Assembly (NCBI GenBank): GCA_024305405.1 | Contig: JAKNDB010000088.1 | Span: forward strand, 2,312,001-2,376,000 | Reading direction: 5' to 3' | Source of the DNA: Dirofilaria immitis | Lineage: Eukaryota; Nematoda; Chromadorea; Rhabditida; Onchocercidae | DNA: 64,000 nt | Notes under the pieces: model-generated | Seen by the model: only the letters and a program-made list of their open reading frames with translations | The model's database searches: none | What the model was told of the DNA's origin: nothing | Made by a program: the position numbers and the translations under genes | Shown here: in pieces, positions 1-63,853 of the stretch | Position numbering within the stretch: position 1 is the first letter of the stretch | Layout of the letters: the number at the start of each line of letters is the position of its first letter

Positions 1-3000
1 TTTAAATAAAGAAGGAATTACTGCTTTGGATCTTTATCAACGTATTCTGAGACATAAGGTAATATTTCTTACATTTCTTGCATTTTCTTTCTTCTTGGTA
101 TGACGCATTGTTCACGAATTTACTGCTTGAATGATTTCATTATGAATATGTATCTATGCAATAATCAAATAACTTTTTTTTATTGTTGTTCCCATGCTTT
201 TAATTTCTACATTTCAGAATTATTTTGTCGCCCTTGTGAACAAAGAAATACTGCCACCAATAATCAATGTGCCTTTCATTGGTCCAATGCCGTATTTACC
301 GAATGGTTTGAAAATGAATTTGGAATGGCTGTTATTTTATGGAGTGTGGTCACCATGGAAAGGGCCATATGAACTAAAAGAAGAATACAAACATGCACAA
401 AATATTTTTAGGCTTGGTAAGAACAACGTAATAATAAATGAAACACTATTTGATCTAAATTGAAATGATAAGAAGCTTCGTTCTTTCGCCTTAGTACTGA
501 AATTTTCCTTCACTATAAAATTCGATATCAATAAATTTCTTTCTTAAGAACTATTTTAAAATTATCTGATGATAATCAGCAAGAATATGATTGGAATTTT
601 TATTTTATGAATAAATGAAATTTGTTTACAATCCAAAACATTTATGAAGATGAGTGTTCTGTGGTATTTAACATTGTTCGTAATGTGGTTATTGTTTTGC
701 AGCGGATGAATTAGATTCAGCAATATTGAAAATGGCTATTGGTAACTTTATTCTTTTCCCGCTTGTATTCATTTATCAAGTACTATATTTCTTCTTTACT
801 TATGGTGAGCTGCTAAAGCGAGATCCGAGTTCTTTTGCTATGCGTAGGTATTCAAACTTTGGAAGGTAATTTCTACACTACTTATTTCGTATTTATGTGG
901 AAGTTTTCGACCTTATGTTTTTTATGAAAATTTTATAATACTTGATATATGATTATATGATAACAAAGATGAATATATTGCAGGAATAAGTTGCGACATT
1001 TTAATGAGTTAGATCATGAATTACGAATCCGTCTTTCAAAAAGTCATCGAGCGGCAACTCAGTATATGGAGCAATTTGTTTCACCACTTGGGCAGGTTAT
1101 CGCTAGAAAAGTGCAATTCGTTGCAGGTGCAATTTGCATAGTATTGCTTCTATTAGGTCTGTGGGATGAAGATGTATTATCGGTTAGTTTGATGCACAAT
1201 TTTAATCATTTTAGTTTCCTTTTTCTAAAGAAATAATTGCTTTGTTGTTGCCTCATTTATTCTTTTAAAAAGTGATTGGTGATTTATGTTTTTGAGCAGA
1301 AGGTCTAAGTGAGTTTTAAGATTAAAATTGAAATAAACGAATCATTTTGTTAGAATGCTGATCGAAAGTTTAATCTTAGGAAAGAGTCTTTATTGTTAAT
1401 GATGATAAGTTACAAGTTTTTGCATATTTGATCTAAAAAGCTATAAGATATATTGGTAAGCATTAAAACATATATGATTTCGAGGTTACGAATATGAAGT
1501 GTTATATGAAAAAAATATTTTAAAGTAAAATAAGTTAATTTGAGATTGAACACGTGCTGACGATCATATCTGCATCTGGTTTAATTGCTGTCGCATGTCA
1601 ATCATTCATTGGGGATGAAAATATGATTTACTGGCCTGAAACACTGCTGGATATGGTAATTGCACAAATACATTATGCACCTGATTCATGGAAGGGAAAG
1701 CCCACACAGGTAGCGCTGTTTTTTCAATTAATCGTTTTCATCATCATAAAATTTATACTAAACTAAGAAAGTATTGATAATACATGCATAGTCATAGTTT
1801 AGGAATCTTAATCGTCTGTTTCTCTTTTAAATTTCCATATCTTTTTGATTAGATGGCTCTTTTGATAACGTTAATGTAGATATTGGAGAAAAAGAATTTA
1901 TGACTGTTATGTTTTATAGCTCGTGAAAGGATTTTTGTCCCTGTTAAACTTAAAATATTTCACAATAATTTCGGTTCTTTAAAAGCTGCTTGTGAAGATA
2001 TGCTTTATAATAATTTTCACTTTATCTTTAACTAATTTATTAAAAAACATGTGAAAATGAAGTTGATCCTAAATAATTTTAGTTTAATTCTACTACTGTT
2101 GAGCAACAGCAACGTTGCAACTTCCGGAATTTTTACTTCTCTACTTTCGAAAGTCTTGGTGCTATCTTAATTAAAATCATCAGTTAATAAATGTACTTAT
2201 TTACTTTACAAACAGAAAAATTTGGCAGAATTTTAAGACAGAAAGGATAGGCGTTTATTTTAGACACTGTTCGGAAAGAATTTGGGCATTTGTTTGAACT
2301 GAAAGCGAGATTTCTACTCGAAGAACTTCTGAGTCCGATTTTAACTCCATTTGTTCTGCTGTTTTGGTAAGTGAAAATTATGCTGTAATAAGAGAGAAAA
2401 TGAAAAAGTTATTCCTCAGAAATTTCGAGATGAAAAGAAAAACTTATCATAATTTTTTTCATTTTTCTCCATATTTTCATTTTCTCCATACTCTTATTTC
2501 TATAATTCTCATCTTAAAATTATTGTTATTTTTGTTACAGTGATAAAATCATATTGTATTTTATCTTTTATTTTCAGGATTCGTCCTAAAGCAAAAGAGC
2601 TTGTGGATTTTTTCCACAATTTTACAATTTCTGTGGAAGGCCTTGGCGATGTTTGCTCGTTTGCGCAAATGGATATTAGACAACATGGAGATCCAAATTG
2701 GAGTTTTCATGAGCTTACGAAGGAAGGTGAAATGCATATTTTAATTTCTAGCATTATTAATTTTTTCATTTATAACTGGTGTGTAATTTTTAGGCAAATT
2801 CACAAATTTTTTTGTTAGGATTGATATTTTTAAACTATGCAAAGTATGGAATAGTTTGTCTTATTATGACAAAGCAATAGAAAATTATATATGCTTCTTT
2901 TTTCTTATTTTTTTTATTTTCAGAAATTGTGAATATGCGTGGAAAAGTTCATGCTAATGATGGAAAAACGGAATTATCTTTGGTAAATTTTGCTAGCAAT

Positions 3001-3938
3001 CATCCAGAATGGAAGCCACCAGCTCGCGCTACTCATTTTCTTGAGGATATACGAGACCGTGTATGCCTTTGTTTTTAGTTTCGCATCAATTTCCAAAATA
3101 ATTCTCAACTATTAAAAACCTGAACAAAAATTTTTGTGTGAAATTTCAGATAGCACACGATATAAATGCATTGAAAGAAGGCATTATGGATGATAATGTA
3201 CTGCTGAATAGTTTACACTCTTTTCACTCCACTTCTGAACAGCAGCATAGAAAATTTATTGGCCGACAGCCATTTCTTGCATCCTTGCATGATCCTGACT
3301 TATTTGATGCGATAGCGAATGCATCTTTACATGGCGAAAGTAAGTTTAGATATATTTTTTTAATCGTCGGTTAGTGAAATTTTAAGTTTTAGTGCAGAAA
3401 AACAAATGTATTTAGCAATAATTAACGGCACATTATATATATTTTTCAAAATAGCTAACCGGGCAGAGATATGATGCTATTAAAAGATGTAAATGATAGG
3501 ATTTAGTAATTGTTGATTTAGCTATTGACATATATCAAATAATTAACTATATGTATCATTACAGGAAAAAATCAGGTAGCTAATATGGTTGCTGCATCAC
3601 AAATGGCAACCTTAAGTATTGCATATCTGCGTAATTTACATATGAATTGCGACAATTATCGCCTTCAAATAATATCCCCGTCGGTAACTATGCCAAGTCA
3701 GCATGTAACAGAAATGTCTCCGATTTCTGCAAATATAGCACCAACAGTAAGTGGAATGACACGAGGTTCAGGCGACACAACGATAGAAACAACAGGTAAC
3801 GTTTGGGGTGTACCTGCGCAAAGTGCGATTTCACCTCTTCAAGCTTCGCTTTCGCCTCGAAGTGAAGATGAACAGCTGCAGCATGAAGGAAATGAACCAC
3901 CACCTCCTAGATTGTCGCAGCATATTCTGGATGTTTGA
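1..3938 (+). CDS. atg-9: Autophagy-related protein 9 (ATG-9), 5' end cut off by the window
   Basis: ATG9 is the multispanning lipid scramblase of autophagosome formation; it cycles between Golgi/endosomal vesicles and the growing phagophore. Exons as read: 1-58, 218-416, 703-865, 984-1182, 1545-1709, 2264-2366, 2578-2726, 2924-3060, 3150-3339 and 3565-3938 (stop TGA), about 578 residues of C-terminal protein against about 840 in human ATG9A. Family signatures are clear: GELLKRDPSSFAMRRYSNFG in exon 3, the amphipathic core around NELDHELRIRLSKSH in exon 4, EELLSPILTPF in exon 6, and CSFAQMDIRQHGDPNW in exon 7. Hydrophobic segments lie in exons 3, 4 and 5. The last exon encodes a low-complexity Ser/Pro tail, usual in metazoan ATG9. 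Exons 5 and 6 join in frame only if one base is missing in the G3A3 run at 1694-1699; adding it gives W-K-G-K-A-H-T, matching the family. All other junction phases agree. The gene is probably functional. Confidence 0.95.
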
Positions 3939-6217: not shown

Positions 6218-9200
6218 GAAAAGAGAAGAATTAAAAGAAATGAAAGAGGAAATTTCAAATATTCGACGAACTTTTCCAAAAAAGACAGCAGTCAATAATA
6301 AGTTGAATTCAAAAAAACGAATGCGGAAGAAAGGTTATCAAAAATATATTCAATCAGTCTTTGATGAAAGTAATGATGATGATGATGATAACGATGAAAT
6401 TGGAGTTAATTTAAAACAATTCAAGTAAGTATTAGATTCTCACATTATTTAGATTTTTCATCAAATTAAATGGCTTATTTTCAAATTAGACAATTTATGA
6501 GATAGTAGCATTTAAGTAAATTGTATATTTGCAATTTAAAACTCTATGTGAATGAAATAATTTTTTTGGACAAATCTAAATCATGCTACGTTGAATATAC
6601 ATATGAGTATTTTATTGAATTTATCAAAAAAAATATCAAACTAATACATTTGTCAAGTTGACGTATGATAATTTAGATTAACAACTATGTTAAACTTATT
6701 TGAAAATATGCCATGATTAGCTTATAGATTAAACTATGATAGACGATGGTGTGCAATAGTACATTATTTATTAATCTTTATGTTATTTATGGTTATTTTT
6801 AATTAAACTTAAAATTTTTGCAAAATTTATTTTACAAATTAAGCAGTAATGTACTATTCCACACCATCGTCTATCATCTATCGTCTATCATAGTTTAATC
6901 TATAAGCTAATCATGAAAAATATTATATTATTTCTTATATTGCTTAAAATTAATTTTTAAATAAATCTTGAAATCATTTCTTTAGTACACTTATAGTATT
7001 GTATATAGAAATTCTGAAATTAATATCATTATTTTGCTAGAATATTACAGATTTATTAAAATATTTAGTATATTATATTTTTCGAAATTTTAGATGCATT
7101 TAGACAAACAATATTCTTCCTTTTTATGTTTAGCAGAAAAAAATCATAGCGCTAAAATGTTTAACTATTTATTTCAACTTATCAAATATTTTAACTTTGA
7201 TTGATTTATTAATTAGTTTATTAGGAGAAAGTTATTTGCCAAAATAAGATAATTACGACATTACGAAATTTTGTTAGTATTTCCTAAATCCTCCTGCAAT
7301 AGTTGTAATTATAAGAGGAATTTATTCAAATTATTATATGATAAATAAAATATTCAGAAATAGGAAAACGAAGAAAGCAAAAAGCAGAGAGTTTTGTCGA
7401 GAAAAATGCAGCAAATCAACCAAAGGAATCACTGCTTAGTAAAGAATGTAACTCCGACACGTACTTTTCAGCAGAAAACGATGGATTTGTTACGTTGAAT
7501 TCTAATGATGATCAGTAAGTAATGAGAAAAAATATTTCATTCATTTGAATCATAATCCATAATATTTCAAATGGAAGCGAAATGTTTCTGCTTGAAAAAT
7601 AATGAATTTTTAATTCGAAAATTTTGAGTGTGATCATTGACTTGTGCTATCATTTATTTCAAAATTGTAATTATTATAAATTTATGTAATTGAATCATTA
7701 TTTCTAGTCTACTGATTTTATTATTTTTCTTACATTCATATTAAATCTAGAAGCATATCATCTAGGATGTTATTAATATAGTTTTAGAAACAAAAAAAAG
7801 AAAAGATATGTTTTTATGCAAATGATCAGAAGACATTGATTACAACGAATGCAAATGCATTAATTTTCTTTTATCATGCGATTATCAGTTAAATCTTAAA
7901 ATTAATTTTGAAAATATCAGTCGTTTATCAATTTAGATCAAGTAATAAAAGCGAATTTGCAACTTCAACAGAAATCGTTCGGATAGTCGGGAAGAAGAGC
8001 TATCAAGCATATCCAACGGAAGAAAAATAATATCGATTTCAATGAACTCCAAAAATCTGAAATAGAAATGAAAGATGGCAAATTATCTTCTACAAAGTTT
8101 GTTATTTCTCGTATGGGAATCGGATGCAGAATATTAAATGATAAAAATAATTTTAAATATCTTAACCAGATAAATTTCTTAAATATTTAACAAAAATTTA
8201 ATCATGTTTGTTACAAGTAAAATTAAATTTCCTACTGATTGCCTCATTCCAACTTTTTGCAGTAATCAGTATATGTGCTTATAGGAAAATTCGGAAGAAT
8301 TCAGGACGATATTATAATTTTAATCTATAAGGTAGTAGAAGAATAAATTCATCATTTTTTTATACAGATACGGAAAAAGACGAAATTTACTAGATAATAT
8401 CATTAAAAAGTGCTCTTCTACCTTTAAATTTTTGTATTCTTAGCGGGATTTATTTTCAATATGATCTGTTTTTCAGTAGTATAGAACAAGAAGAATTTGA
8501 CAGGTATTCCTTAGATGAAAAACAAACGGAATCTATTAAAAAGCCTATTCAAAATATAACAATTTCTCCAGCGAAAAAGCATGAAAAAGCAGATTTTGAC
8601 GATGAGGGATTTCGTGAAGGCACTTCTTTTATTTTTGTATTTTCGAAAGGCTTCTAATTGTTTAATATATTTGTTTCATTTTTTTGTGACTATAGTTATT
8701 TTTCTAATTAGAAGATTATTTTATTTCTTTAATTTTCAAGATTTATACCTTTTTCAGCCTGCATTCGTGAAAATGCTAAACTAATATATTTTTCGCATTT
8801 CAGAAATAGCGAAGATTCCATTAGGCAAGACAAAACAGCTACAGGAACGATTAGGGACAAAACTATTCAACAAAGCATTCTTTGTTCACGATGCATCATC
8901 TAATCTTAATAAAAAACCGATTCAAAAAGTTTTTATGGTATTTATTTTAAATTTCATAAAAATCCAACGTATTTGGTTATTCCTATTATAATTTCTCATT
9001 AAGTAGCTATCTTATCTTAACACATTATAATAGAATGCAATTTCCTTCAAATACGATGATTATGTCGTTGAAAAAATAAAAGTATTTTTCGAAAGGCTTC
9101 TAACTATTTAATATGTTTGTTTCATTTTTTAATTTATTTGTCCTTCAGCTCTCTTTCAAATCACGTAAGTAATCTAGTAATTGTATTTTTATGTAAAGAT

Positions 9201-10920
9201 CTTAAATAATTAAGTTTTTTTGATTTCGTATCATCAGTTTGCGTAGCATAATCTAATCGTTTAATTTGTAGCGTGAAAACCCAAAAAGGCCACGTGAAGT
9301 GTCATCGAAAATGCCGGTGTCTAAATTCAAGAACATATTCGCGAATGAAAAATTGGAAAGACCTATGTAAATTTTCAGATGACATTCTGCTATATATTTG
9401 ATCTTAAAATTCTTTTTTTTTTAAATTTAGTTATTTTAATAAGCTTTATTTTTGCGACGTTTGTTTTGTATATTTTCTTTTCTTTAATCCTTGTAATATT
9501 GAGCGGGCTATATTTGAAACGTATATATATGTATATATCAAGTTATACTATAATAAGATTTCTGGGTGTTAGAACTTTTATTAATGTGAAGATTATATCT
9601 TTACTTATAAGATATTATATTAGAAAAGGGAAGTATCATTATAATATAACTTGAGATTTAATACTGTTCTAATATATAATCAGTATTTCTGTTGTAGACT
9701 TGATCCTCGATTCGATAGCAGATGTGGAGAATTTAATGATTACATATACCACCATAATTATAGTTTTCTAGATGAAATACGTCAACGAGAGAAAAAGTAT
9801 CGTTTTGTATATCTTTTATATACAATTAATTAGTTCCATTTTATATTATAAATGATAGTTTGACAAATAATAACATAGGTCGTTTTAAGATGATAAAGTT
9901 ATATATAATCACATGAAAAGAAATTTATTTGGAAGTTGTGGATTAATAATTCAAGTTCAGATTTATGAAAAAATATATTCAAAACGAAGCCTTTATTTAA
10001 TTTTAAAAAGTTATGAACTTCTTTAGATATTAGTGGAGGAATTGAAAAAACGACGGAAGGAGAAAATATTGATAAAAAACGATTGAAAGAGGCACTTAGA
10101 AAAATAAAAAATCAGGAGAAGTAAGTTTGCATAAATATATTTCTAAAATTTTGGCCATCTTATATGTCGATTAATATTTTTGATAAAAAAGTATATAATA
10201 TTTGGTGGAAACTATTGGAATTTCAATTAGAAATTCTTATGGATAATCATAATCATTATTCATTTTTCTTTTCACCTCTTTTTATTTTCTTCAATTTTAT
10301 TTGGTCTTTCTGTGAGAAATGAATCATGATTTAATATGTTGACTTCTTTTAATGATTTATTTATTTATAATCATTATTATTATTTTCGTTACAGAACACG
10401 AGCGGATGTTAATCGTCGTAAAGAAATAATCCGTGAAATACGTCATGAAAACAACGAACGCATGCGTCAAGGCTTACCACCCATCTTCAAGACAAGAGGT
10501 TTTACATCATATAAATATCATTTTTAAATATTAAGCATATCCTTCAATTTATATTTTATTTTTTAAAAAAAGGTAAAAAAATGTCTTTCTAAATTTATAA
10601 TAAACTCATTATTCTAATATTTCAACTATTATGCATTTTTTTGGAGAAGTTTCTATAATTTAAACAATTAATTTCAATTTTGAAGTAATTTCGAATTGAA
10701 AAAAATGAATTTGCAAATAAATACATCTGAACCAATATTCATTTTGATATTTTAAGCACAAATTCGCGAACTCGTATGGCGGAAAAAGTATGATGAATTG
10801 AAAGGCGGAAAAAAGTTGGAAAAATATCTTCGTCGCAAAACCAAAAAACAAGACAAACGATATGATATCAATAAATTAGTAAGCCATGAAAATGAAATAG
10901 CATCACCTACAAGTGATTAA
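6218..10920 (+). CDS. rrp36: RRP36-like ribosomal RNA processing protein
   Basis: RRP36 is a nucleolar protein of early 90S/SSU processome assembly, needed for cleavages of pre-rRNA that yield 18S rRNA. Exons as read: 6218-6424, 7358-7514, 7972-8096, 8477-8613, 8804-8937, 9272-9366, 9698-9796, 10027-10120, 10395-10498 and 10757-10920 (TAA). Family landmarks in order: LGTKLFNKAF (exon 5), RPREVSSKMPVSKFK (exon 6), LDPRFDSRCGEFN then FLDEIRQREKK (exon 7; the DPRFD..GE signature), the basic helix NRRKEIIREIRHENNERM with RQGLPPIF (exon 9), and KKYDELKGGKKLEKYLRRK (exon 10). Exons 1-4 give an acidic and basic low-complexity N-terminus, including five consecutive Asp, poorly conserved in the family. 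The start is uncertain: ATG at 6240 is used if no leader exon exists. Exon 3 needs one A added at 8023-8027, and the exon 1/2 and exon 7/8 junctions have unresolved phase, so the N-terminal model is tentative while exons 5-10 are firm. Confidence 0.85.
6712..6915. repeat. Foldback (inverted-repeat) element in rrp36 intron 1
   Basis: The left arm 6712-6766 and right arm 6847-6915 are reverse complements over about 55 bases with one or two mismatches, around an AT-rich loop of about 80 bases. The right arm carries an extra copy of a short stretch containing TGATAGACGAT, about 14 bases. There is no coding capacity. It looks like a MITE-type foldback or a hairpin that expanded by slippage. No clear target-site duplication was seen. 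Confidence 0.85.
8637..9135. repeat. Dispersed pair of ~48-bp direct repeats in rrp36 introns 4 and 5
   Basis: A block beginning TTTCGAAAGGCTTCTAA at 8641 recurs at 9087 with roughly 85-90% identity over about 48 bases. The copies flank exon 5 (8804-8937) of rrp36. This suggests a small duplication inside the gene. Its position on both sides of one exon is notable, but the exon itself is not duplicated. Confidence 0.7.
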
Positions 10921-12231: not shown

Positions 12232-15200
12232 TTAACTATTTGTTTTATTTTCGGCTACATTCATATATTCGTTATTCGTACATAATTCAATAACATATTG
12301 TAATTTAATTGGTATAAAAAATTTGCTTAGATTTGTAAAACGTACTATATATTTGCCATGTTTACAAATTATTGAACCTTGTTCAGGTGTACGTAAACTT
12401 CTAAGCGTAATTTTTGGCCATACAATTTGCTCATTATCATTTTCAATTTTAATAATCGAAAATTCAATATCACTATTTACCGTAAAATGCCATAATAATA
12501 TTTGTGAATCTGTTGTGCAAATTCTGAAAAAAGAAAAAAGAAAGAGAACGATAAATATGTTTTTTAGAATTAAATTTTTAAATATTTAAACAAATTAATA
12601 TTAAAAAAAAAAAAATAAAAATAATATGCAAAATTTTCATTTCAAGCATATTTCAAAATTTCTTTTTTTTCTTTTTCAAATTTTATTCATTTTTATATTT
12701 ATATACATACATATATGTATTCAGGTATATTTGTATTGATTAAGAAAAGAAACTTTTTTCCTAATTATAAACTTACTTTTGAATTTCAAATGTTTCCTTT
12801 CGTTTGATTAATTCAGTATGTTTTGGTGGAATATTTGTATAACCATATTTTTGCCATAATAAATCACAATTATAATAATGTTCAGGTTCTATTTTTAACG
12901 GTTTTTGGCATATTAATTCTGGTTTTTCCGCATATCCACTTTCATCGTACCATTCTCCACCGTACATTGCTGGTACTAACTATAAGTAAAAATTTTTTAT
13001 TTTTGCGAGTAATTAATTATTAGAAATACAGTATGATGCAAAAGTACAGTAGAACTTCATTAGAAAGTTATTAGGCAATTCCAGTAAATCGTTTCAAATT
13101 GCAATCTGATTACAATAATTTGAATAAATATAATTCATATTAGAGAATTAAAAAGAATACAAAGCCATTCCGCAAATTTACATATAACTTCATCCGGCAA
13201 TAGATATCATATGTCATTATTGATAATGATGTTTAATAATAACTGTTAAATCAATACTAAATCAATCGTGGACGAAAAACTTTGAAGATTTACCTAATGA
13301 ATGTGATTTTAAATTGATAACTGAAATTTATTAATTATTCAGATTATTAGTTTCCAAATTTTTGTTTAACATATATTATTTAATTATTTCAATTATCAAA
13401 TTTGATAATGAATTCGTTAGGATTACTTTTTATTTAATTTGAAAAATCGATTATTTAATTAATTGAAAATGAATTCATTGATTGATATAATTTATTTCAT
13501 AAAATGAAAATTTTATCATTTGTTTATTTATTTGTCTTTTTTGAATTTAAATATACTTACTTTCGGATTTAAATATTTCATTAAATCAGTTGGTTGATGA
13601 AGAAAATGAAGTCGTGATTGTGTCGATTTATCTACCAAAAGTTTAGCAATTTGTCCCATTATATTTAATAATGCTGGTGAATTTACAAGAAATAATTTCG
13701 CTTGCTGTAATTAAATAATAATAATAATTATTATTAATATTATTATTATGTATTTTAATTTATTAATAAGTAAATGTAAAATTAAAATTAATTCTATCAA
13801 TATTAATTTCTAAATTTATTCAAAGTAATGAAAATAATTAAATAAAATTAATTACTTTCAATTTAATTTCTTCAGGAATATTGCAAAAGTTTTAATAAAA
13901 AATATGAAAAAATAAGAAAAATAATATTTGCCATGCAAATTGATTTATATTTGTAATTAATATGATATTTGCTTTTAGTAATTAATTTCAACTCAAAAAT
14001 ATCTCACAATTTCAATTCTGATTTACATTACTGAATTCTAATTCAAAATGTTTACGAAATATCATTTCACTTTTATTCTCAATTAGTATAGAAAGTATTC
14101 TCGATAGAGTATTCGCGATTAGTATCCTCGATTATTTTGTATTTCTTATATCTTTCTATTCACACTTGTATTCTCGATACTAATTCTTAGATTGGTTGAC
14201 TATAGTTTAAAATGTTTCGAGAATTCCGCAATCTGGCCAATATTCTAAGAATGATACCAGTCAAATCGAAATACAAAATAATTAAAATTTACTACTATTA
14301 TCATATTCTTGTAATAATATTGTAATTAATTGCTTTAAAAATAATCGATATAATAAATTTAAAATTGAAATTAAATTTTTAAAATAAATAAACAATGAGA
14401 TGAAAATTCCACATTCGACAAGCTTTATCTATACCATGAAAGAGAAAGAAAGGAAAAAAACACTTTAATATTATTTCATCTATTGATAGCAAGAAACAAA
14501 AAAACAAATTAAATTAAAAAACATAATTTAATTTTGATATCAACTTTAATTATTCCATTTCAAATTATTATTAATAATAAATAAATAATTATTCGAAAAA
14601 AATTTGTTTTATTACCGTTTCAGCAAAATAATCTGCCCATATTTTCACAATTAATCGTACAAAATGCGCCGATACACTTAACGGATTCAATAAAGCTGTT
14701 GTATTGACCTCAGAAAGGTCAAGAATACTAACAACAATTGCAGGTGTACCTGTTGCTTTTTCAACTTCTAATTGAGCACGTGTAAATGCTTCTTGCGCAA
14801 TAAAATAGGAATGAATAACGTAACTGAATGGTATTACTTTTGTTATCTGTAATCTTTTATCATTTTAATTTTACTTTTTATTTCCTGAATATTCTTTCTA
14901 AATAAAAGAAAAAAAATTTATAAATTTTTTTATTTATTCAAAAAATTTTTTTGAAAAAATAATTAATTAATTTGATATAAAAAAATTTGAAATTTTTATT
15001 TTTATTTTTTGTAGAAATTTATAAATAAAAATATCAAAAATAAATTGAAAAATTAATAAATTGTTATCATAAATTAACGAAAAATTTTAAAATTTATTAT
15101 ATTAACTATGGTATAATTTTTATTATTAAATAATATGATATTATTATTTTTTTTGTTTTAATAGAAATTTATGTACTTAAAAAGTATTTGAATTGGAAAA

Positions 15201-16467
15201 TTTCAAAATTATTTCATAAATTATATTAATAGATGATAAATAAATAAACATTTGGTACAGAAATATTAATTTTTTTGTATTTTAAAATTTTTTGATTTTA
15301 AAAATTGTTAAAAATTGAAATAAAAATAGTACTAAATCAATGAAATCATAATAATCAAGAAGTGAAAATAATAATAAATCCAAAATGATATTAAATTCAA
15401 CAATTCAAAAATTGAAAATGATAATAATGATATGATACTAACCTCATCGATATCATTTGTAATCATTCGTTGAAAAAATACATATATATTATTTATCTTT
15501 TGATTTAATGCTATTTTTGAGATGCAAAACGCTGAAAATTGATCAAAAATCATTTTATAAAAAAAAAAATGAAAATTGCAAAAACATTTTGGGAAAGAAA
15601 AACAATAAAAATGACTCATATGGGGAGAAAAGGAAAAAAAAGAGAAAAGAAAAAGTAAGTACAAAATAATCAATTTATCATTTCAGATAACAAAAGGCGA
15701 ACAATTTTATTTTAACTGAAAATTTTATTTTAACGGAAAAAAGAGGAGAATTTTCTAAGTTTAAAAAAAACTTTTAAATCGTATTTGCTTGAATATCATT
15801 TACCTCAAATGTTTTTTTAGCAATTTCTAATTTTGTTTGCAACAATTGTGTTTCGATACAATCATAGGCAAGTGCTCGTCGATGATCAAATAAATCCTTC
15901 ATATTTCGTTTAATACGATCTAAATCACCATCATAAGCACGCCACCAGCGTGCCAAATAAAATACTGTATTGAATAAATCCGGAATATCATCAATTATTT
16001 GCCTACAAATAATGCGTTTATACGGTATATATGATACAGTATACTTGCCGAGCAAATACAGCATGATTAATTAAGCTGACATTTTATTCTTCATATTCAC
16101 TGTATGCGTGAAAAAATGGAACTTCCATCATTTTTAACTATTTTGATATATCATTTTTGATTATCACATTAAAAAATTTTTATATAATAAGCAGCAATTT
16201 TGTGGTGATATATACAGTGTCCTTGATGTCAAAAGAAATACATTTGCAGTAATATCAACTAATAGATTAAATAATGCATAAAATATAAAAAATTTTAACT
16301 GAAAAAGTTGTATTTTAATGAAGAAAATGTAATTGGTGATTATTACAATAATATAATTTAATTTAAAGAATTTAAAATTCTCTTAAAAATACTAACCGAA
16401 TTTTTTCAGCTCCAGCTATTTCATCTTCCGTTATTGGTGCTGGTGTAATATACTGAGGTGGTTTCAT
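12232..16467 (-). CDS. SEC14-like CRAL-TRIO / GOLD domain protein
   Basis: Predicted cytosolic lipid-transfer protein of the SEC14L family; C. elegans relatives are called ctg (CRAL/TRIO and GOLD). Exons in transcript order: 16467-16397, 16002-15804, 15531-15443, 14846-14616, 13704-13561, 12979-12777 and 12523-12232 (stop TAA), about 409 residues, the usual family length. Residues ~25-90 form the CRAL-TRIO N-terminal helices (FYLARWWRAYDGDLDRI). The lipid-binding lobe follows with VSILDLSEVN, KLFLVNSPALLNIMG and LVPAMYGGEW, the family's closing motif. The last ~150 residues form the GOLD beta domain (QILLWHFTVNSDIEFSI; YIVRFTNLSKFF). All junctions are in phase except the third exon, which reads in frame only with one base added in the four-base run at 15526-15529 (T on the coding strand). 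I do not assign a ctg number. The ligand is unknown. Confidence 0.87.
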
Positions 16468-46920: not shown

Positions 46921-46924
46921 TTTT

Positions 46925-51000: not shown

Positions 51001-53250
51001 CCAAGTACCGTTGAATGTTTGGTAGAGCATATGGGAAATCCCAATTCGAAAATATCTCTGGCAGCATTATTGGCAGTTGGAAATATTGTCTCAGGAGATG
51101 ATGAGCAAACGCAGAGTATGATTCTCCTTGATTTCGATTCTTGCTTGATTCCTCTAGCTATAAAAAATATATATAAATTTTATTTCGAAGTCTTCAGTAA
51201 GCAATAGTTTCTCTCCTGAAAAGCTTGATCACGCTTGTATGGTCAAATAATTTTTCATTGGATAGATAATACGATTTGTATCTAATGCACAATTTTTTGC
51301 AAGGAATGATAATATCATACTGAAACTGTGAATATTTTTATATTTAATAATAGATATAACACAATTGAAGATGTTGTATGCTGTACGAATGCGTTAAACA
51401 ACATTCATCGTCTATTACTAGACGGTGATCAAAAACGAAGCGTGAAGTATGCTGGGTATTATCGAATATTGCTGCTGGTACATCTTCGCAGATACAAACC
51501 ATTTTGATGCTGGAATAATTCCGTCTTTGATACAAATTTTGAAAACGGAGACATTCCAGATTCGTTCCGAAGTAAGTTTTCATTCCCGTAAGAATTTTAT
51601 TTTTCTTATTTTATGCAAATAATTTTTCAAATATTCCTTAATAAAAATGCGAAGCTTCAAAAAAGATGCAAATTTTTATCTTTTAGATTAAAAACATAGG
51701 AAATTTCTAATTTGTTTTGATTTAGGATCGTTTACTTCATTTTAATTCACTCAATTTTGTTATTATACTTTCTAAAAAAATGCAGTCGGAAAGACTAAAG
51801 TTTTAGAAGTTTGTGAGAAATGCATATTAAAATGATTTTCCTTTCAGCTGGTTGTTGTAAGACAGCAAATGAAAATGTTATGGAAATCTTTCAGCTTTAA
51901 TGAATTATAAGATTAAAATGAAGTGAAACACTTTATAGGCGTGCTGGGTTATTGCTAATGCGGTTACTGGAGGTAGCAAAGAACATATAACGAGAATTGT
52001 GAATGAAGGTGCTCTTACACCTCTTAGTGATATGCTTACGGTTATGGATTGCAGTGTTGTTGTTGTGGTACTGAAAACATTAGCTGGGATTTTGGAATGT
52101 GGTGAAAGTTATAAAGGTGGCGTTCAGTTGTTTATTCACCTTATGTACTCTGTTTACTTTTCTTTACAGGCATGTAGAACTTTTGTCTGTACCTACGTTA
52201 CTATTGCATTATACAATTTCCACTGTCATTTCAAAAGATATAGAATTGGACTTGCCATTAAGCATGGCCAGACTTTATTTTAAATTTTAATACATGTTAA
52301 CGAATATTTATATATTTTCTTATCAGTTTCCAGTCGATTGGGATAGAATATCCTCTAAGACTGAACTTTTAAAGTCATCTGTGATCCTATTAAATTAAAG
52401 TTAGTTGAAAATGAAAAATAATTTTCTGACTAGAAATCATTTTTGGAATTTTTATTCTAGAATGTTGATGATACATTTGTCAACTATATCGGTAATATGG
52501 GATTTCTGGGAAAATGCAGTTCTGATAGTTGCATGATGATTTAAAAGTGTTATGATGATAGGGTTTTTTTTTTAATATATATTTATCTGCTATTATCATT
52601 CGCTTTGCAGTTAATGGCAAAAATCCTTATTCTGCGATGCTAGAAGAATTAAATGTGATCGACAAATTGGAATTCTTGATGTTGTAAGTTAAGCTTCAAT
52701 GGTGAAAATGTTGCAGAAAATGCCTTTTGTCTTTTGGCATGAACAGGTCTTCACACAACTTAAAAAATGCTAACCAATCTCTATACATTTCTAGATGAAA
52801 CTGACTAATCAGGGTTTTTAGCTATTTTTGTTTTCTTTTTTTTTATCGAATCATATAAGTTTAATCTTTTTTAGAAGTACAAATACGGAAATATTTTTTA
52901 AAGCATGCGCAATCATGGAAAAATATTATCTTTGTGATGATGACGAACAAGATGAGGCTGCCAGCAAGAGAAATTCCGATGCTATAGATTCTGTTGGTAA
53001 AGCTATAAATCATTTTAATTTCTCTTAATCTATGTATATTTTTTCTTTACTCTGCGGCTTTAAATATTGAATACTTTGGTTTTTTCCTTTTTGAAATCTA
53101 TCGTCAGGATGGAATCTTCTTGATATGTTTGTTCATTTAGTTACATTCGAGATTAAGGATTTTATTGAAATCACAATATCGCAACTAATGGAAAAAAAAT
53201 CATTTTGTGAATTTTCCTACAAATTGGTGATTCTGGTATCCTCTAAATGA
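48036..53250 (+). CDS. Divergent importin alpha (karyopherin alpha)
   Basis: Importin alpha carries nuclear-localisation-signal cargo to the nucleus with importin beta. Exons: 48036-48114, 48545-48687, 48782-48844, 49144-49246, 49887-50085, 50216-50344, 50429-50513, 50869-51115, 51371-51571, 51939-52116, 52611-52683, 52875-52996 and 53108-53250 (TGA), about 588 residues. Exons 1-2 hold the importin-beta-binding domain (MRKRREEACAEIRKARR, NKRRQ). Exons 4-12 hold about ten armadillo repeats, e.g. ALGNIAAECCEYRDLC, CAVWAASNLCRGKEPP, AVGNIVSGDDEQTQ, EVCWVLSNIAAGTSSQIQ, ACWVIANAVTGGSKEHI. The last repeat ends TNTEIFFKACAIMEKYY. The signature Trp of helix 3 is kept in repeats 4, 7 and 8 but absent from 2, 3 and 5, so the major NLS groove is altered. 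Exon 9 needs one base added at 51431-51435 and one at 51502-51505. The exon 8/9 boundary was chosen by phase and homology; the last exon is uncertain. I do not assign an ima number. Confidence 0.9.
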
Positions 53251-54045: not shown

Positions 54046-55503
54046 CTAGCTATTAATAGTTGATTTCGCTTCACTGTTTACTCTAAAAGAAAAATTTCAT
54101 TCAAATGTTCATTTTACAAAAACATATTAAAAGTAACAAATTTCCATGGTAAAGTACATCATGGCCGACTTAGTGTATATTATTTTATCTCAGTTCATTT
54201 CTAGTAGCGCAGTTTTCTCAAATCAAAACTGCTGTAAAATTCAATATAAATCTAACTAGGATAATATTGAAGAGATTAAAATTCGATTTGAGAGTATTAT
54301 CACTTACGCGAATATTTTGAAATTTTGAACATCAGCCACTGGACTCAAGAAGGAAACGTTGCGCGATGATTTTGATGACTAGAATTTTCATATTACAAAC
54401 TTCATATTTGAACAATGTTATTTACCTTTTGCTAAATTCTTTAAAAGATTTGAATTCCTCATGGAAATCACTCAGATTAACTGACGAACTTTTAGTTATC
54501 ATTAGCGAAGAAGCTGCTTTGTCATTATTTTAGTGTCTTATTGATAGGATATTGATAGCGCGCACTTATGGTACATCAAAATCCATATTATACAAGCTAT
54601 ATGGGATGAGATGTTACCATTTTGGCGCTTACGGCGATGGTTCAATGAAAATTATTCTAATTTGATCTTCAGAAAAAATTTCAACTTGCATGTTCAAACT
54701 GTGTTTTTTCAATATTGATGATCTTCCAGTAACACTCAGAATCGATTCAAGTACATTCGGTGTACTATCATTTTCTGTTGATTCAACTTGCAGATGCATG
54801 GAAATTACTGCTGAATTTCCCAAGTTTTGTAACACTCTGGGAGTGGATCCATTAGATTCACTACAAATTGAAGTTTTTCAATTGAAATCTTTTTAATTCA
54901 TATTAATATTTAAAGTTTGTTAACAATCTATAAAAGAATTTAAAATTTTAAAATTAAAAAAAAAGAAAATTTTTAATAAGGAATATCATGCAAAAAGGAA
55001 ATGTTATTCTGATCAAAAGACATTTCAAATGAAATTTTTATATTGTATAGTGTAAAGAGCGCTCTATGGATAAAAAAAAATTCTAATTACAGGTCTTTAA
55101 AGTCAATTACATATCTAAATAACAAAATTTGCCATAGATTTTCTCTTATAGAGATGAAAGACATTAGGAAGTGTTTTATAGCATATTAGAATTTTTTTAT
55201 GACTTTCCGTAATCATTTGAATGTCAACTCACAGAAAAATTAAATTATATTGATATTAGATTCCTCTTTTGTTCTAGCTATGTAAAATAATTTCAATATT
55301 GATGAAAAATTTTTGCTTATTTCTAATGTATTACCCCGATTTTGTCATCATATTTTCGCGTCGTGCTAAATCGATCTGTTCTTCTGTATTAATGCTATCA
55401 CCAATTTTTATTTTAACAACATCACTTTCAGTCTCGTCTTTCATTATTGCCATATCTTGTTCTTCCATTGGTAGTAATAATTCCGTCATAACTCGTAAAA
55501 AAT
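54046..55503 (-). other. msh-5 C-terminal tail exons
   Basis: The frame of the exon at 55503 runs to a TAA at 55331, but GTAATA at 55334 is a usable donor in phase 2. It joins exactly to an exon at 54860 preceded by TTTGTAG, and then by good donors (GTAAGC, GTAAGTG) to exons near 54513, 54378 and 54082 (TAG at 54046). The encoded tail (~190 residues) is rich in Ser, Thr, Asn and Glu. It contains four S/T-P sites: STPR, STPN, EPSP and LSPV. The boundary near 54513 and a one-base gap at 54427-54430 are unresolved. Confidence 0.7.
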
Positions 55504-58500
55504 CTGAAAACAATAAACATTTTTTCTTCTCACATATCAATAAACATTTTTTCTTCTCACATATTTTCCTGTAATTTTGATGTTTGTGCATATACTTTTA
55601 GATCTCATTCGATACAACATTTTGTAATTCATATTTGATTTATAGAATATATATCTGCTATATATGTCAGTACTTTTTCAAAATGTATAATATGGTTCTG
55701 CTTTTTATATAACATTATTTTCATGAAGTTAATGACAGTTCATAAATGAATAAATCACAACCCTAGTTAAAAATCACACTTGCCAAAAGAGGAAAATCAG
55801 AAAAAGATTGAATATTTAAATAATTATAAAAACTTTTAAATCCAAAAGTATAATACCTTTGAAATTCACGGTAAAATCAATATTTTTCAAATTCTCTAAC
55901 AAAGGTTTAATTTTGAAATATAATTCTCCATCGTCATCCAAAGGATCTATGGGTATATTGCATTTGAAGCATTGACGAATCTAAAGCTAGTTAATTTTAA
56001 ATTACATTTATACTGTTTCCCAATTTATTTTAAACTACATTTATATTGCTTCCCATTTATGAAAAACTGCAAAATATAAGTAAATTATTAGAAATAGACC
56101 TCATTAGCGCGTTTTATAATTTCGCTATCAATACCAACTTTGGATGCAATATATGAAGCATAAGAACAATCAATAAAGCCATCAACAAGTTTATATTGAA
56201 AATTGAAATTTCCATCTTTTAATATTACATCCATTGTCTACAGAAATAAATCTTAAACATTAGAAAAAATTTGGATTTAATTGTTTGCATTTTCATTTTC
56301 ATTGTTTCGATTCAAATAATTAAATAAACATGCAAATTATACAGTTGATATCTGTATTTGGAATATCTTTCTAGTTTCAGAATAATCATCACAACCTCGT
56401 CATCCCACAAAAAATCAATATTCATTTTTGAACAAATCGATTAATTTTTTAAGAAAATTCTATAAAATTTTTGATTTGCAGAATGCAACAACGATTTTCG
56501 TTGATAGAATTTTCAAACATTTCCAATTAATATTTTTAAAATCCTAAAGTCTATTTAAATACCAAGAACGATAATAAGCTGTCATCCTTAACGATATGAT
56601 CAATTAATGAATGGAAATGAGATACAGCGAAAATATGTGGACAATCAGTTTTTCCTTTCCGAATCCAATAATTCAATGATGATGTCAGCAAAGAGAAACC
56701 TGCTTCCTGAAAAAATATTATGCTATTGCATTAACACGAAAAGCTTTTGTCTTGCAGCAAATAAGCAAATGCATACAAGTGGTTTCATTTATTCAAAGAA
56801 AAGAAAATCTTCATGAAAGAATCTAGAAGTCAAAAAATTTTGAATAATTAAAATTGAGGTACCATAACAGTGCCTCTACCGAATTCATCGATCAAAATGA
56901 GCGAATTTCCGGTCCCACGTTGTAAAGCAATAGCCATCTGAAATTTTAAATAGAAATTATATTTTGCAAATAACAAGTTTAATTTTCATATATATTTGGT
57001 TTACTTTAAAAAAATCAAAATCACTTTTGAATTATACAACCTCTCAACTTAGTTTAACAATTAAATATTAAAATGAATGATGTGGTTCAATAAATAACCT
57101 GCGACAAATCCGTCGCAAATGTCGACATTCCATCAATACGCAATCCAGTGTATGTATTCGTGTAATAATACGATCCACTGGTCCAATAATAGCACTTTTA
57201 GCTGGCACAAAACTTCCAATATGTGCAAGAAATACAATAATTCCAATCTGTATTCAACTTATTAGCTAATTTTCAATTATTATTTATTTACATGCTATTT
57301 TCAAGATGCCTTTTCGTTGCTATTAGAAGCTAACTTTAATAACTTTAATAAAAAAATAATTCATAAAGATAAGTTATTAAAAATATATTTATTCTCACAT
57401 TTATAACCAAAGTACTATCCAAGAGTAATGCAAGACTTACGTACATTTTTTCTTGCATTGATAATGTAAACCGATTTGATCATTCAATTTCATGAAACTT
57501 AATATTTATATTGCCTTGAAATCATGTACCTGTTTCAGGTAAACACTTTTGCCAGATGCATTTGGTCCCATTAGAACTTTCACCTTTGTTTGCGCACCTC
57601 CAGAACTACAAAAATACATTTTCATTTGTTTTTATCAAAATTAAGCTAATGTAACTTCAATTCTTTTCATGAAAGCTTTGCAACGATTATTTTTTATGCG
57701 AAAAATAATATTCACTTATTTTATAGAGATACTGATTCTTATGCAAAAATAAAATAAAATGAAATTGAACCACTAATTAAGTAAAGACTCATTTAGAATA
57801 TCATATTGAAATGTGAAATGAAACATACTATTTGAGAATATATTATTCTTCAATAAGCGATTTAATATAATTTGTCAATCAATTATAATTGCGGTCTATT
57901 CAAATTCAAAATTAAAATTTTTGAATTTGTTAAATTAATAACCGAATTGAATTTGGAACGAATTTACTCGTTGATAACAATTCTGTAATAGCATGCCGTC
58001 CATCATCTACATCAATCACAGATTCATCTACGTAACGTGGAGAATGCCAGTTATATTCACGAGCTGTTAGTGCGAGTGAAATAACGCAATCTAACGTAGC
58101 GCAAACATAAACTGCTTGACGGATAGATTTATCATATTGGCAAACTAATTGCTTCAACCTAAAGTAATGAATTTAAAATTGGTCCATCAACAAAATCACA
58201 CAATGAATCATTAATTATACAATCAGATATTATCAAGAAAGAAAAATTAGCTAGAGAAGTTAAAGATAAATAAAATACTTTCGTGAAAAATTTCAAAGTT
58301 AAAAATCAGTAACGATGAAGAATAAAATCAGTAAGGATGAATTTCAGGCTTCCTGATATCTTCAATATATAAATTCTCTCATAATTTTTCAAATTCCTTT
58401 TCATTAATAGAGAAATAGATTTTAGTATCTCTTCTTAGATCATAAAACAGCATAAGAGTAAAATACGTAAGAATTATATATTGATTTTGAAGTTATTTAT

Positions 58501-61500
58501 ATTGTGGAAATACATCTCACTTCAAATTATTTTTCTGATTTTCAAGTATTTCTAAAGTTTCTAGAATTGGAAATTCAGGAAAAAAACAAACTTTAGCATT
58601 GCATTTGTTTCAATATCAATTATTTCCATTTTTATATCACCAATTTCTCGATCAAGTTTACGCATTCGTTCATTTTTACATGTATTGCATTTTCCGTCTC
58701 ATATAAAAGTTCAATTTCATTTCGAATAGATGATGGAAACACTGTATTTTTGGTACCACTAACAAATAACCAAACATCGGTATATAACATACGGATGATG
58801 GTACATCTGAAAAAAATGCTCATTCAATACGAATTTTTTTACAATTCTTCAAATCTTCTCTAATTTCTTCATTATAATTCCTCTATATTCGTAAAATTTT
58901 TTTATTTCATAGGATAATAAATATAACTATTCTTACTCAAAGCTGTAGCTTCCATTCTTGCAATGCGTGTCAATGTTTTGGGTAACGATGCATATAATTC
59001 CTTCACTGAAACTTAAGATTTTTACTAAAATATATTAAAATTTTAATTATTAATGATGTCTTTGGACTTTTCTTTAAATTATTTGAAAAACGATTTTGAG
59101 CATAAGTATAATATGAAGAAAAGATAAGACATTTTTAGATCCAAGAAATTTTTTTCAATTTACAATACAAATATTCAAAAGAAAGCGTAAAATTTATAGA
59201 TTCCTAAAACAACACTTTACAATGATCCAAATTCTCATCGACATTTGCATTTACGACAAATCGATTTTCCATAAATGATTCCGAAAAATTGATCTGTTAA
59301 AAAAATGAATTATTTAAAAATTATTATTAATGTATACGACAATGAATATTTCTTTCGAAATTATTTGTATAAACAGTGAACCTCATTAGTCAAGGAAAGC
59401 TTGTCTAATTATATCCTTTAATATGTGTGCTTCTTTATTTATTTCAATTTATACAGTTTAGTTTAGAATGTCCACTCATTATTATAATGGATAACTCATA
59501 TTTTCCGAGTAAATATGCTAGAAAATTGTGTAAAAGAGATCATATAAAAGAAAATGAAAGGTATTAAAAGTGATAAACTTACAACTTCAAAGATAACAGC
59601 TGTGATGCGAGTAATATCTTTGCCAACACTTGCCATTTCATTATCAAGTAAGGCAAATTTCATTTCTCGGATTTTGATATATTCCAGAATTTGCTGTGCT
59701 GTATTGCATGTCTTTAAAAGTAAAATGAAACTAGAAAAGGAAGATAAAGAAAAAGCTGGAAAAATAATCGTGAAAATTTTTCTATCAGTTCATCATTATT
59801 TCAACAAAATATGACTGCAAATTACTATCGTTTTTCATTATTTATTATTAAATCTTTTCTTCCAGAAAATAATTTCTATAAAATCATCATGTTATTTTTG
59901 TGGCAGGATTTTCGGTGTCTACAATAGTAGAAATTTTAATAAACTTTGAAACAATTAAAGATATGCACTAAAAATCAATGTCAATTGCATTTCAATTTTT
60001 TGTTTTTTTGCAAAGAGTAAGACAAATAATAAATAGAACCGTGTAAAGATTTCGCCAATCATTTAATGTTAAACGTTGCGATTTCACTCGTTTGAGAATT
60101 CCTAAAACAATATTGGTATCATGTGATAATGTTATAAACTCAGTACACTGATAACTTCAGTTAAATTATTTCAATAGTGAAATAAACATCAATATTAAGC
60201 AAGTGATTTGCGTCTTTTGATCATATGTGATTTCATACAAGATGGACTTCGATATCAATCTTTCAGGAAAAAATTTACAATTGTATTTTTAACAGAGCTC
60301 GTTTAATATCATTGCTAATTTTGTAATTGTTGATTTTACAAAAATAGAAACAGCGAGAAAAAATGCAGAGAAAAAGCATAGCATACTTTTAAAATGCAAA
60401 TTTTCTTTAATCTTATTCGTATGAAATCAGCCGCATCAAGATTGCAATCTTGCACGAAATAATGGATAGCTGTAACGCGATTCGTTAGCACTTCTCGATT
60501 TGTTGTCGGTCGTTCGAACCAACGCCCAAAAAAATTTTTTTAATTTTTTGAAAAAAATACTTGAAAATTTTCAAAAATTTTTAAGAAAGCTTAAATCAAT
60601 TCATAGCATTAATTCAGATGAATTTCTGTGAATTTTAAAAACAATAATTTTCAATTCCCTCAAACTCTTTGATTTCATTTGCATAGAAGATTTATAATGT
60701 GTAAATGGATCTATTTCATTATAACACATTTGTGTATAAGACTATGAGAATACAATATTAATTTTTAAGCAATAATTCAAGCCTTTTAACCATCATAACA
60801 GTAATTACTTACTAAGGATTATAAGTTTTGTATATGCTTTAAAAGTATTTCTTCTTTCGAAATTCTCTTGTTTTTTAATTTTACCATGAAAAACAAAAAA
60901 TACCGAAGTAAAGTCTCTCCACTTTTAGACTGGCATCGATTACACATACGAAATAAACTGATCCTTTCTCGAGCACCACCAGCTGCATATGTTTTACAAG
61001 CTGATGGATATAGATCATCCTGGAAAATTTGCAACGCACGCTTGGAATTGTCATCCACCTGCATTATTTCCTCCCTGAAAAAGTCAGTTATTTTTCAAAA
61101 TATTTTATGAAAATTATTTAATACATTTCCACTCTAAAATTAAACAAACAAAATAATCGTATTGATTGATCTGATGGGTGTTTTCATATTGATATCTTCA
61201 AATTCTACTCCTAATCGTACTGCATCCAAATATTTCAACAGAGCACCAAAAGCGCAAATCTAAAAATTGAAAATTAAAGAAACAAAAATTAACTGAAGCA
61301 TTGAAACATACTTCGTAAATATTTAGAATTATGCAATAGAAAAAGGAATTCGATACAGTATTTTTTCACTGATACGAAACCATTGAAATAAACAAATAGA
61401 TCAGTGCAATATTATAATATCGTTTAAATAATTATTCGATAAGAGTTTGGAAATGCAAAATAAGATATTAGGCATGGATTCAACATTTACTTATTCTAAA

Positions 61501-63853
61501 TGCTATCAATCCATAAAATAAAGAAACAACTTTTTAATAAACTAGCCATATTTGTTGCTGTCAAATCTAATCGAAATGCTAAACGAAGATTATTCTCTTC
61601 TTTAGTAGAATTCATAGATTCAAAGAGTGGTAAAATACGTTTCTTAGCATCTTCAAAATCTGGAAATGTATGAATCGGAAATTCATCTAAATAATCAAAT
61701 GCTGGTTGGATAAATAATAATTTTGATAATCACAGTAATTTGTTCATTAAATTATTAAAAAAAAAAAAAAAAAAAACGAACTATAAGCAACACTCGGCAT
61801 TAAATGTAATGCAATCATAGATTTTGCTTGTACTTCATCATCACTCTCGTCAACATTCTCATCTTGATCATCAATTCCTTCTTTATTTACAGTATTATCC
61901 TGTTCAATTTCTTTATCTGGCATTTCGGTAATTTTATCCGGTATTTCGATAGTGTTACTCTCACCAAAACCTTTTAAAAACAATCGATTAAGAAAAAATT
62001 TTTTCAACAATTTAATCCCTAATATATTTTATCTAATTCATTAAATTATACGACAAAGGAAGGAAATTCAATTATTCGAAAAATTATACATCAAATCGCT
62101 AAATTATATAAATTTCACTAATTTGATTAAATTCACTAATTTGGAAGATTTTTAATCTAATTTTCAAACACTTACATGATTTGTTAAGTTGGGCGAGAAG
62201 ATTGACATCTTGCTTTTTACTAACAATAATAATTGATGGTTCTAATTGCAACAAAACTATAACAAATTTAAAAAGAAAAAACAAAAGAAATCAGATTAAT
62301 TCATATAATTAAAAATAATCGAAATATTCCAAAAAAAAAAAACGCTCCCACTAACTTTTATGGATTATCATTTATAATGCAAGTAAAACAGCTAATTAAA
62401 TTATCAGATATATTGACCTATAACACTTCGAAGATAACAGTCTGGACCATTAAATCTACGGTCATCCATTTGAAACCTAAGGAAAAACTTGGATTCATTT
62501 GCATTTTCATCTTAATTTCAATGAACGAATTGGGAAAATTTAATTTTCTATAACTTTTTCAGTTGCATAGAATGTAACTGTATCAAGAGTAGCCTTTGTT
62601 AAACAATTCTAACTTCAGAAATCTCAAGCATTCTTAGCATAAATTAATTGGGATTAATGTTTTTAATTTTTTTCTGACTCTGATGGCTTAAAATTGTATG
62701 TTTAAAAATTTCTCGAAAATTCAATTATTTTTGAATATTCCCAACAATTCAAAAATTCAATTAAAACTTAATAATTGGAAAAACATAGAACTGGAGAAAA
62801 ATATTACTCGAAAATAATAGTTATCTATTTTAATGACATGTTTTGAGCTGTCCTATAATTCACAAGAAAAAAAATTAATTAAAGTTTTCAAAAAACTTAC
62901 GAGAATGTGTCATCTTGAAATCATTCTCATCCTCTAACAAATCGGTTAACACAAATATTGCAGCCGTTTCTTGATCATAGCACGCAGCGCCAAGTTTATT
63001 TCGATTATAATGCAACGATAAAACTTTAGTTGACATCTATAAAAGATACGAATTGAAATATTTTTAAGAAAAAAGGAATTATTGAAATTTGACATTTTAC
63101 AAATATTTTATCCAAAAATTCTAATAACAATTTTTGATTATATTTATGATATAAATTTATTGAAATATATTGTTTCTTTGAATATTTTTCAATAATTTGA
63201 AGATTTATTTTTAAATCAAAATTTTATAAGAAAAAATTTTTTAAATATTTCTAGCTAATGAAGAATTAATTTTCAATGAAACTTTTTCCTACATAATTCA
63301 TCAAAAATTTACTGTTTTTTCTCTTTCTTTCAAATATTTCTGATTAACAAAAGAAAAAAATTTAATTTGACGATTAATTTTTGATAGATGCTTTGCAAGC
63401 ATTTATGAATCGAAAATTTGAAAAAATAATTATCAATATATCATTATATTTAATATATCGTATTAATTTTAAATTCAATTAAAATCAATTTTTTCGAGCA
63501 AAAATAAAGCAAATTAATTTTTGCAAAAATTTACAAAAAAGTTTGATTCATTTCTTTCTACGCTCATCTTAAATCTATTTCCCATTCGCTTTACTTAAAT
63601 ATCATATCATTTCATATTTTAGCAATTTTCAAATTCAAATTTCAACTTTCAATTTCAATTTTAAATATTTAATTAATTTAACTCGAAAAGTTAGAAGGAA
63701 AATGATATGTCGAATTGTTTTAGAAATTTCATGAAATTTTCAAAAGTAAAAGAAGATTGAGAATAAAAGTTTAACTCACCCAGTCAAAAAGTGAAATTTT
63801 ACCGGAAATGATTCCGATAATTTGAATAATTGCATTATATCTTTTGGCGCCAT
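54046..63853 (-). CDS. msh-5: MutS homologue MSH-5 (meiotic crossover factor) with C-terminal extension
   Basis: MSH5 pairs with MSH4 as a ring-shaped ATPase that stabilises meiotic recombination intermediates for crossing over. About 26 exons; key ones: 63853-63780 (possible start), 63036-62901, 62476-62418, 62256-62176, 61970-61782, 61259-61150, 61074-60904, 60525-60387, 60101-60040, 59711-59583, 59293-59221, 59005-58937, 58806-58592, 58158-57943, 57605-57530, 57247-57099, 56937-56863, 56706-56563, 56237-56100, 55980-55857, 55503-55335, 54860-54633, ~54513-54426, 54378-54308, 54082-54046. Walker A is [13 protein letters not shown] (57.5 kb); Walker B is [11 protein letters not shown] (56.9 kb); [13 protein letters not shown] follows. 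The clamp/lever core gives [12 protein letters not shown] and WFERPTTN. As in MSH5 generally there is no mismatch-recognition domain I. Length is ~1060 residues against ~835 in human. Frame needs one base added near 62473, 58747-58751, 58673-58677, ~57143-57152 and 54427-54430. The true start may instead be the ATG at 63036. Confidence 0.95.
61755..61776. repeat. Poly(A) run on the plus strand
   Basis: A run of about 22 A, read as poly(T) at the start of an msh-5 intron just after the donor. It is the longest homopolymer I noticed and a likely site of length error. Confidence 0.9.

Follow-up and report, generated by a model that had tools for sequence, protein, structure and literature searches.

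Reading-frame breaks in neighbouring genes of Dirofilaria immitis very probably reflect bases lost from a nanopore-only assembly

Introduction

Are the interrupted reading frames of several neighbouring genes in one stretch of the heartworm genome a property of the worm, or of its assembly? The stretch, hereafter the window, comprises 64,000 nucleotides, from position 2,312,001 to position 2,376,000 of contig C18 (3,687,191 bases) in the Dirofilaria immitis assembly ICBAS_JMDir_1.0 (GCA_024305405.1). Six genes are at issue: atg-9, rrp36, a CRAL-TRIO gene, a DM-domain gene resembling mab-3, a divergent importin alpha gene and msh-5. The original prediction, made from the letters of the window, had placed ten one-base losses in homopolymer runs of these genes, and had read them as under-calling of run lengths in a long-read assembly. 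We conclude that the frame breaks are almost certainly consensus errors of a nanopore-only assembly, with bases lost mostly in short homopolymers, and that the genes of the worm look intact.

Homopolymer errors are expected from a nanopore-only recipe in which the consensus is corrected with its own raw reads. PMC9179477 describes a D. immitis assembly of 110 contigs and 87,899,012 bases (N50 3,687,191) made from one adult worm, which was sequenced with MinION R9.4.1 and base-called with Guppy 2.3.5. The assembler was Flye 2.8.3 in nano-raw mode, and the Pilon correction was fed the same raw reads; genes were predicted with GeneMark-ES, and BUSCO completeness was 93.9%. The available methods text of that paper names neither short reads nor short-read polishing. 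The data are nanopore-only, without polishing by accurate reads, which is what under-calling by Oxford Nanopore Technologies (ONT) sequencing requires, and homopolymer-length errors have been described for ONT-only assemblies (PMC7500977). The name ICBAS_JMDir_1.0 is used for GCA_024305405.1 in PMC11144916, and PMC12693587 gives its size as 86,813,779 bases and cites PMC9179477 for it; the genome searched here has 65 contigs and 86,694,620 bases. No comment on frame errors appears in the literature excerpts on this assembly, which were selected with its accession and species names rather than with error terms; such a comment may still exist in print.

Results

Proteins predicted from a second D. 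immitis assembly (relevant contig 15,145,155 bases), which is represented here by those proteins, were aligned to the window with a spliced, frameshift-tolerant aligner of our own. As a second yardstick, 8 to 11 nematode proteins per gene, chosen from larger search returns, were aligned. Frame changes on the window were penalised at 16 (stricter) or 9 (lower), the value of 9 having been picked after the result at 16 was seen, and GC donors were accepted by the script only when preceded by G. A lost base cannot be placed exactly within a homopolymer run; losses were assigned to runs by hand from the alignment at the lower penalty. Comparison with the second assembly was possible for atg-9, rrp36, importin alpha and msh-5. 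For the CRAL-TRIO gene and mab-3, no second-assembly protein was identified among the proteins returned by the searches.

Over the 2,437 codons aligned in these four genes, 15 one-base losses and no gain were counted at penalty 9, one printed 'gain' having been set aside (see msh-5 below). One loss falls in atg-9, six in rrp36, two in importin alpha and six in msh-5. At penalty 16 the same genes yielded 12 loss events, amounting to 13 missing bases, and again no gain. Every event is a loss, as had been predicted (sign test on 15 against 0, p = 6×10−5), and this predominance of small deletions over insertions is what ONT under-calling requires. Errors are also concentrated in homopolymers: runs of at least four identical bases make up 8% of the coding sequence and hold 11 of the 15 losses (binomial p of roughly 10−9). 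The codons identical to the second assembly were 566/566 in atg-9, 401/404 in rrp36, 528/529 in importin alpha and 936/938 in msh-5. Amino-acid substitutions numbered four, at residues 125, 254 and 416 of rrp36 and residue 896 of msh-5, when two mismatches that sit at the edge of a model or an exon (importin residue 542, msh-5 residue 933) were left out. Comparison with another assembly of the species had been proposed as a check, and at the protein level the breaks are absent from this independent one in all four comparable genes. The reading frame is also unbroken at conserved sites in other filarial species. The least certain of the 15 losses are the two at exon junctions, 9793/10028 in rrp36 and 60386/60101 in msh-5.

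In natural coding variation, substitutions normally outnumber frame-shifting indels, the reverse of what is seen here. A real frameshift polymorphism, or local gene decay in the Portuguese worm, would fit the origin of the two gene sets in separate assemblies, which presumably represent different worms, and the differences between them at these sites. This explanation has to accommodate 15 frame-shifting losses against 4 amino-acid substitutions, five unrelated neighbouring genes all affected by single-base losses and never by gains, and the same pattern in essential chaperonins (see below). Pseudogenes are expected to show substitutions, stops, and insertions as well as deletions; the alignments show near-identity on both sides of the breaks and no gains. 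Since, in addition, no close second copy of importin alpha was found, this makes polymorphism or decay very improbable.

The 3′ part of atg-9 (autophagy protein 9; 8-3935, forward strand) aligned over 566 codons, all identical, to the second-assembly protein P0054. Its single break is a one-base loss in a G3/A3 stretch (1694-1699, residue 489), across which GKAHT or a similar peptide is continuous in P0054 and in 10 further nematode ATG9 proteins. The rrp36 gene (rRNA processing; 6321-10917, forward strand), aligned over 404 codons to P0019 with 401 identical, carries six one-base losses. That in the A5 run at 8023-8027 (P0019 residue 117) had been predicted; the others are new. They lie in an A5 run at 7379-7383 (residue 42, lower penalty), a T4 run at 7392-7395 (residue 47), an A4 run at 7947-7950 (residue 92) and an A6 run at 10045-10050 (residue 306), and at the junction of two exons. 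This last phase break falls at 10028 (residue 300) in the lower-penalty alignment, or else in an A run by the donor, at 9793-9797. The donor-side placement and its coordinates were set by eye; at this place KKIL or KKML stands in P0019 and in nine filarial homologues. Runs of at least five bases number 18.9 per kb in this gene; in the seven CCT genes for which they were counted, the range is 2.3 to 8.1. Another apparent break, at 8612-8805, was gone once GC donors were allowed (intron at 8620).

The divergent importin alpha gene (48036-53027, forward strand) aligned over 529 codons to residues 1-542 of the second-assembly protein P0001, with 528 identical. Two losses were found, both seen against P0001 and against other nematode proteins: one in an A5 run (51431-51435), at which P0002, the importin of the gene set that belongs to the window, goes astray, and one in a T4 run (51502-51505). 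No close second copy of the gene was found in the genome, the other matches of P0001, on contig C21, being 33 to 40% identical. A further break at the junction of exons 8 and 9 (51115 to 51370) was ruled out, because TQNVV is present there in the two D. immitis proteins and the phase is kept with an acceptor at 51370. At 53141-53235, P0001 ends in an extra exon that needs one lysine codon beyond what the A run of the window allows. The filarial importins compared end like the window (..NHFNFS-like), and therefore P0001 has probably been mis-modelled in its terminal exon; the three-base difference at residue 560 of P0001, in an A run near 53191, was left out of the loss count. At 47525-47652, a 63-base unit stands in tandem duplicate, at 98% identity.

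The msh-5 gene (54049-63895, reverse strand) was aligned over 938 codons to the second-assembly protein P0068, of which 936 are identical, and carries six one-base losses. Two of them, in coding-strand A5 runs at 58673-58677 (residue 482) and 58747-58751 (residue 458), had been predicted. Four are new. The first is in a coding-strand A6 run at 54704-54709 (residue 926, lower penalty), where P0084 and P0091 also have KKTQFE. Another is beside a G or GG at 57130-57136 (residue 646), where nine of the ten aligned MSH5 proteins read CVLDGMS or CALDGMS, the exception being the window assembly's own. A phase break at an exon junction (residue 326) was placed by eye at 60386-60394, with the following acceptor, near 60101, as the alternative; of the ten aligned MSH5 proteins, eight have a CILKGILK-like sequence there, one is gapped, and one is the protein of the window assembly itself. 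The last is an A4 loss at 63842-63845 (residue 18, against the second assembly) in the first exon of the P0068 model, which is possibly 5′ untranslated region; the eight other filarial MSH5 proteins that were aligned all lack residues at this place.

Two further msh-5 sites of the original prediction, 62473-62475 and 54427-54430, lie in introns in the P0068 alignment and, as judged by peptide, in P0074, the protein of the window's gene set. The exons proposed around them (62407-62511 and 54425-54529) were rejected, because no aligned MSH5 protein uses either. At 62473 the flanking exons are joined directly in nine of the ten aligned MSH5 proteins; the tenth, P0089 of Litomosoides, contains some 24 additional residues, which match the proposed exon no better than shuffled letters do. 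A misreading of gene structure, with no missing bases, thus accounts for these two sites, and it also accounts for apparent breaks at putative GC-donor introns. One such break, at 61543-61549, was gone once GC donors were allowed (intron at 61546), and the 'gain' printed at 54686 was read by eye as a GC-AG intron with donor GCAAGT. Three such introns were noted in all, at 8620 and 61546 by the aligner and at about 54691 by eye. Most of the other sites fall within single exons and have conserved peptide on both sides, and we consider it unlikely that some of the counted breaks are of this kind.

Exon 9 of msh-5 (60380-60580, reverse strand) has an open frame and is preceded by tttttttgggCG, with no AG acceptor. 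This stretch is absent from both D. immitis models and is kept, identically or in close form, in all eight other filarial MSH5 proteins. A genuine change of the splice site in D. immitis would give this picture, and so would an error common to the two gene models.

The CRAL-TRIO gene (12235-16467, reverse strand), aligned over 390 codons to P0032 of Brugia pahangi, shows one one-base loss, in a coding-strand T4 run at 15526-15529, by comparison with other species only. All four of the filarial relatives that were aligned (P0032 to P0035) retain the exon opening E-RFCIS, which the deposited D. immitis protein P0022 lacks. The gene takes its name from PF00650, precomputed for P0022 and P0032, since a Pfam scan of two exon pieces by themselves found no match.

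The DM-domain gene (mab-3-like; 39399-41827, forward strand) encodes two DM domains by Pfam (E = 10−10 and 2×10−20). No D. immitis or filarial homologue was present among the 35 proteins returned by the protein search. Of 12 DM-domain homologues, one is without the motif; in the other 11 the protein runs on well past the position of the A6 run at 41265-41270, where the frame of the window stops a few codons later. A loss in this run is a candidate: the lengths of the homologues are compatible with it and do not prove it. Between the two DM domains, a CAC/ATC repeat tract (40420-40690) encodes runs of proline and serine. Just upstream of the gene, at 37573-39263, lies a tandem array of 30 units of 57 bases (99% identity), in which all 29 spacings are exactly 57; the 15 genome matches within reach of the search all fall inside the array.

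Taken together, six of the ten predicted sites (1694-1699, 8023-8027, 51431-51435, 51502-51505, 58673-58677 and 58747-58751) are borne out by second-assembly proteins, and a seventh, 15526-15529 in the CRAL-TRIO gene, by other filarial worms only. The two intronic msh-5 sites were mistaken and the mab-3 site is unproven; therefore five of the six genes, and not six, are shown to be affected. The list of ten was also incomplete, with nine further losses in rrp36 (five) and msh-5 (four). Its explanation, homopolymer under-calling in a long-read assembly, agrees with the ONT-only recipe and with losses that are one-directional, mostly in homopolymers, and recurring elsewhere in the assembly.

It had also been expected that automatic gene finders would split or truncate the genes. 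All four deposited models compared (P0002, P0020, P0022 and P0074), each placed on a contig of 3,687,191 bases, are indeed damaged at the breaks, by dropped exons or false junctions rather than by splitting; among the proteins found for atg-9, none belonged to this gene set. In P0002 (importin alpha), the stretch around both breaks is gone and replaced by a false junction; P0020 (rrp36) misses 107 residues; P0022 is without a 30-residue CRAL-TRIO exon. P0074 (msh-5) lacks the equivalents of P0068 residues 292-328, about 454-481, and 645-658, the gap at 292-328 adjoining also the exon without AG acceptor. Programmed ribosomal frameshifting or mRNA editing could in principle restore the proteins from a correct genome sequence, and near-identical frames flank each break on either side, as such a process would need. 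At conserved sites the proteins of the second assembly and of other filarial worms are continuous, the contexts of the sites differ and have no common motif by eye, and the deposited models go astray instead. We regard frameshifting or editing as extremely improbable.

As a control elsewhere in the assembly, the eight CCT subunit genes and HSP60, on seven contigs, were analysed over the parts that align to PDB chains (54 to 81% identity). The stricter penalty gave 2 losses and no gain in 3,134 codons, in two of the nine chaperonin genes; a looser penalty of 11 gave 4 losses and no gain in 3,131 codons, in three of the nine. Each of the 4 losses lies within or beside a run of A or T that is four to seven bases long. 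The chaperonin genes show the loss-only pattern, which is therefore not confined to the window.

Two other controls were sought. For the mitochondrial one, no complete COX1 was found in the assembly: there were six short matches, five of them with internal stops, among them C64:1211108, C26:881535, C26:1610144 and C58:519462-520413. For an intron-free control from Wolbachia, no complete groEL was found among the matches. A bacterial-type GroEL fragment with five stops at C10:9536462-9537217, on a contig of 12.5 Mb, is likely a nuclear Wolbachia transfer, and a short one at C8:14134-14310, on a contig of 978 kb, has an open frame of 79 codons. Nuclear Wolbachia transfer regions number 483 in D. 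immitis (PMC12693587).

Discussion

The following sequence of events would account for the frame breaks. The current signal of MinION R9.4.1 resolves homopolymer length poorly, and base-calling with the early Guppy 2.3.5, followed by correction with the same raw reads, would drop one base from the consensus in some runs. AT-rich filarial exons hold many runs, and therefore several genes are affected. An ab initio gene finder would then drop exons or invent introns to keep the frame open, and would thereby pass damaged proteins into databases. We infer that the raw reads themselves under-call at exactly these sites.

Several points weigh against this account. The evidence consists of consensus sequence and proteins, and the second assembly is seen through predicted proteins that have faults of their own, in P0068 (first exon, exon 8/9) and in P0001 (C-terminus). 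For the losses at 57130-57136 and 60386, no run of more than two bases can be clearly recognised. Some differences between gene models lie away from the breaks (additional segments of 10 and 24 residues in P0002, different N-terminal residues in P0074, the faulty C-terminus of P0001), which means that gene prediction differs between the two assemblies for other reasons too. The 30 units of the tandem array stay at exactly 57 bases, and run-length error is therefore not uniform. In PMC7500977, errors after polishing were more often over-predicted run lengths, so that a loss-only pattern is not universal for ONT. Finally, the general account alone falls short of explaining why the window, with 15 losses in 7.3 kb, exceeds the controls, with 4 losses in 9.4 kb. 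Part of this excess comes from the sharper yardstick of near-identical proteins, from rrp36 with its many A runs, and from the choice of a bad patch when the window was first read; a further part may have another source. A regional cause, such as modified bases that disturb the signal or an unusually low read depth, is quite unlikely. The rate comparison (p = 0.002, or 0.04 without rrp36) was given no weight, because two yardsticks and the penalties 9 and 11 are mixed in it, and because the window was picked as bad-looking; a Fisher test in which gene sets were mixed was likewise disregarded.

If, as we consider almost certain, the breaks are consensus errors, they are not real features of the genome of the worm. 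The artefact class is already known, and nothing is discovered here about heartworm biology; the consequences are nevertheless concrete. GCA_024305405.1 has served as the D. immitis reference for mapping RNA-seq reads (PMC11144916) and is listed as one source of evidence in the annotation of D. asiatica (PMC12546972). Gene losses, missing domains or target sequences inferred from this gene set need to be checked against another assembly.

The closest likeness is with the ONT-only assembly of Drechmeria coniospora (PMC7500977), in which, as in the window, frame shifts were found in homopolymers of conserved genes, and where BUSCO was insufficiently sensitive to short indels. The two cases differ in direction: in D. 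coniospora after polishing, over-predicted runs were commoner, whereas in the window 15 of the 15 counted events are losses. Kastor (PMC12007338) likewise deals with frameshifts that fake pseudogenes in long-read assemblies and, as was done here, finds them against a reference set, in its case a curated one. Kastor is a tool for small genomes, whereas the genes studied here have introns, and the damage is hidden by a gene finder that drops exons.

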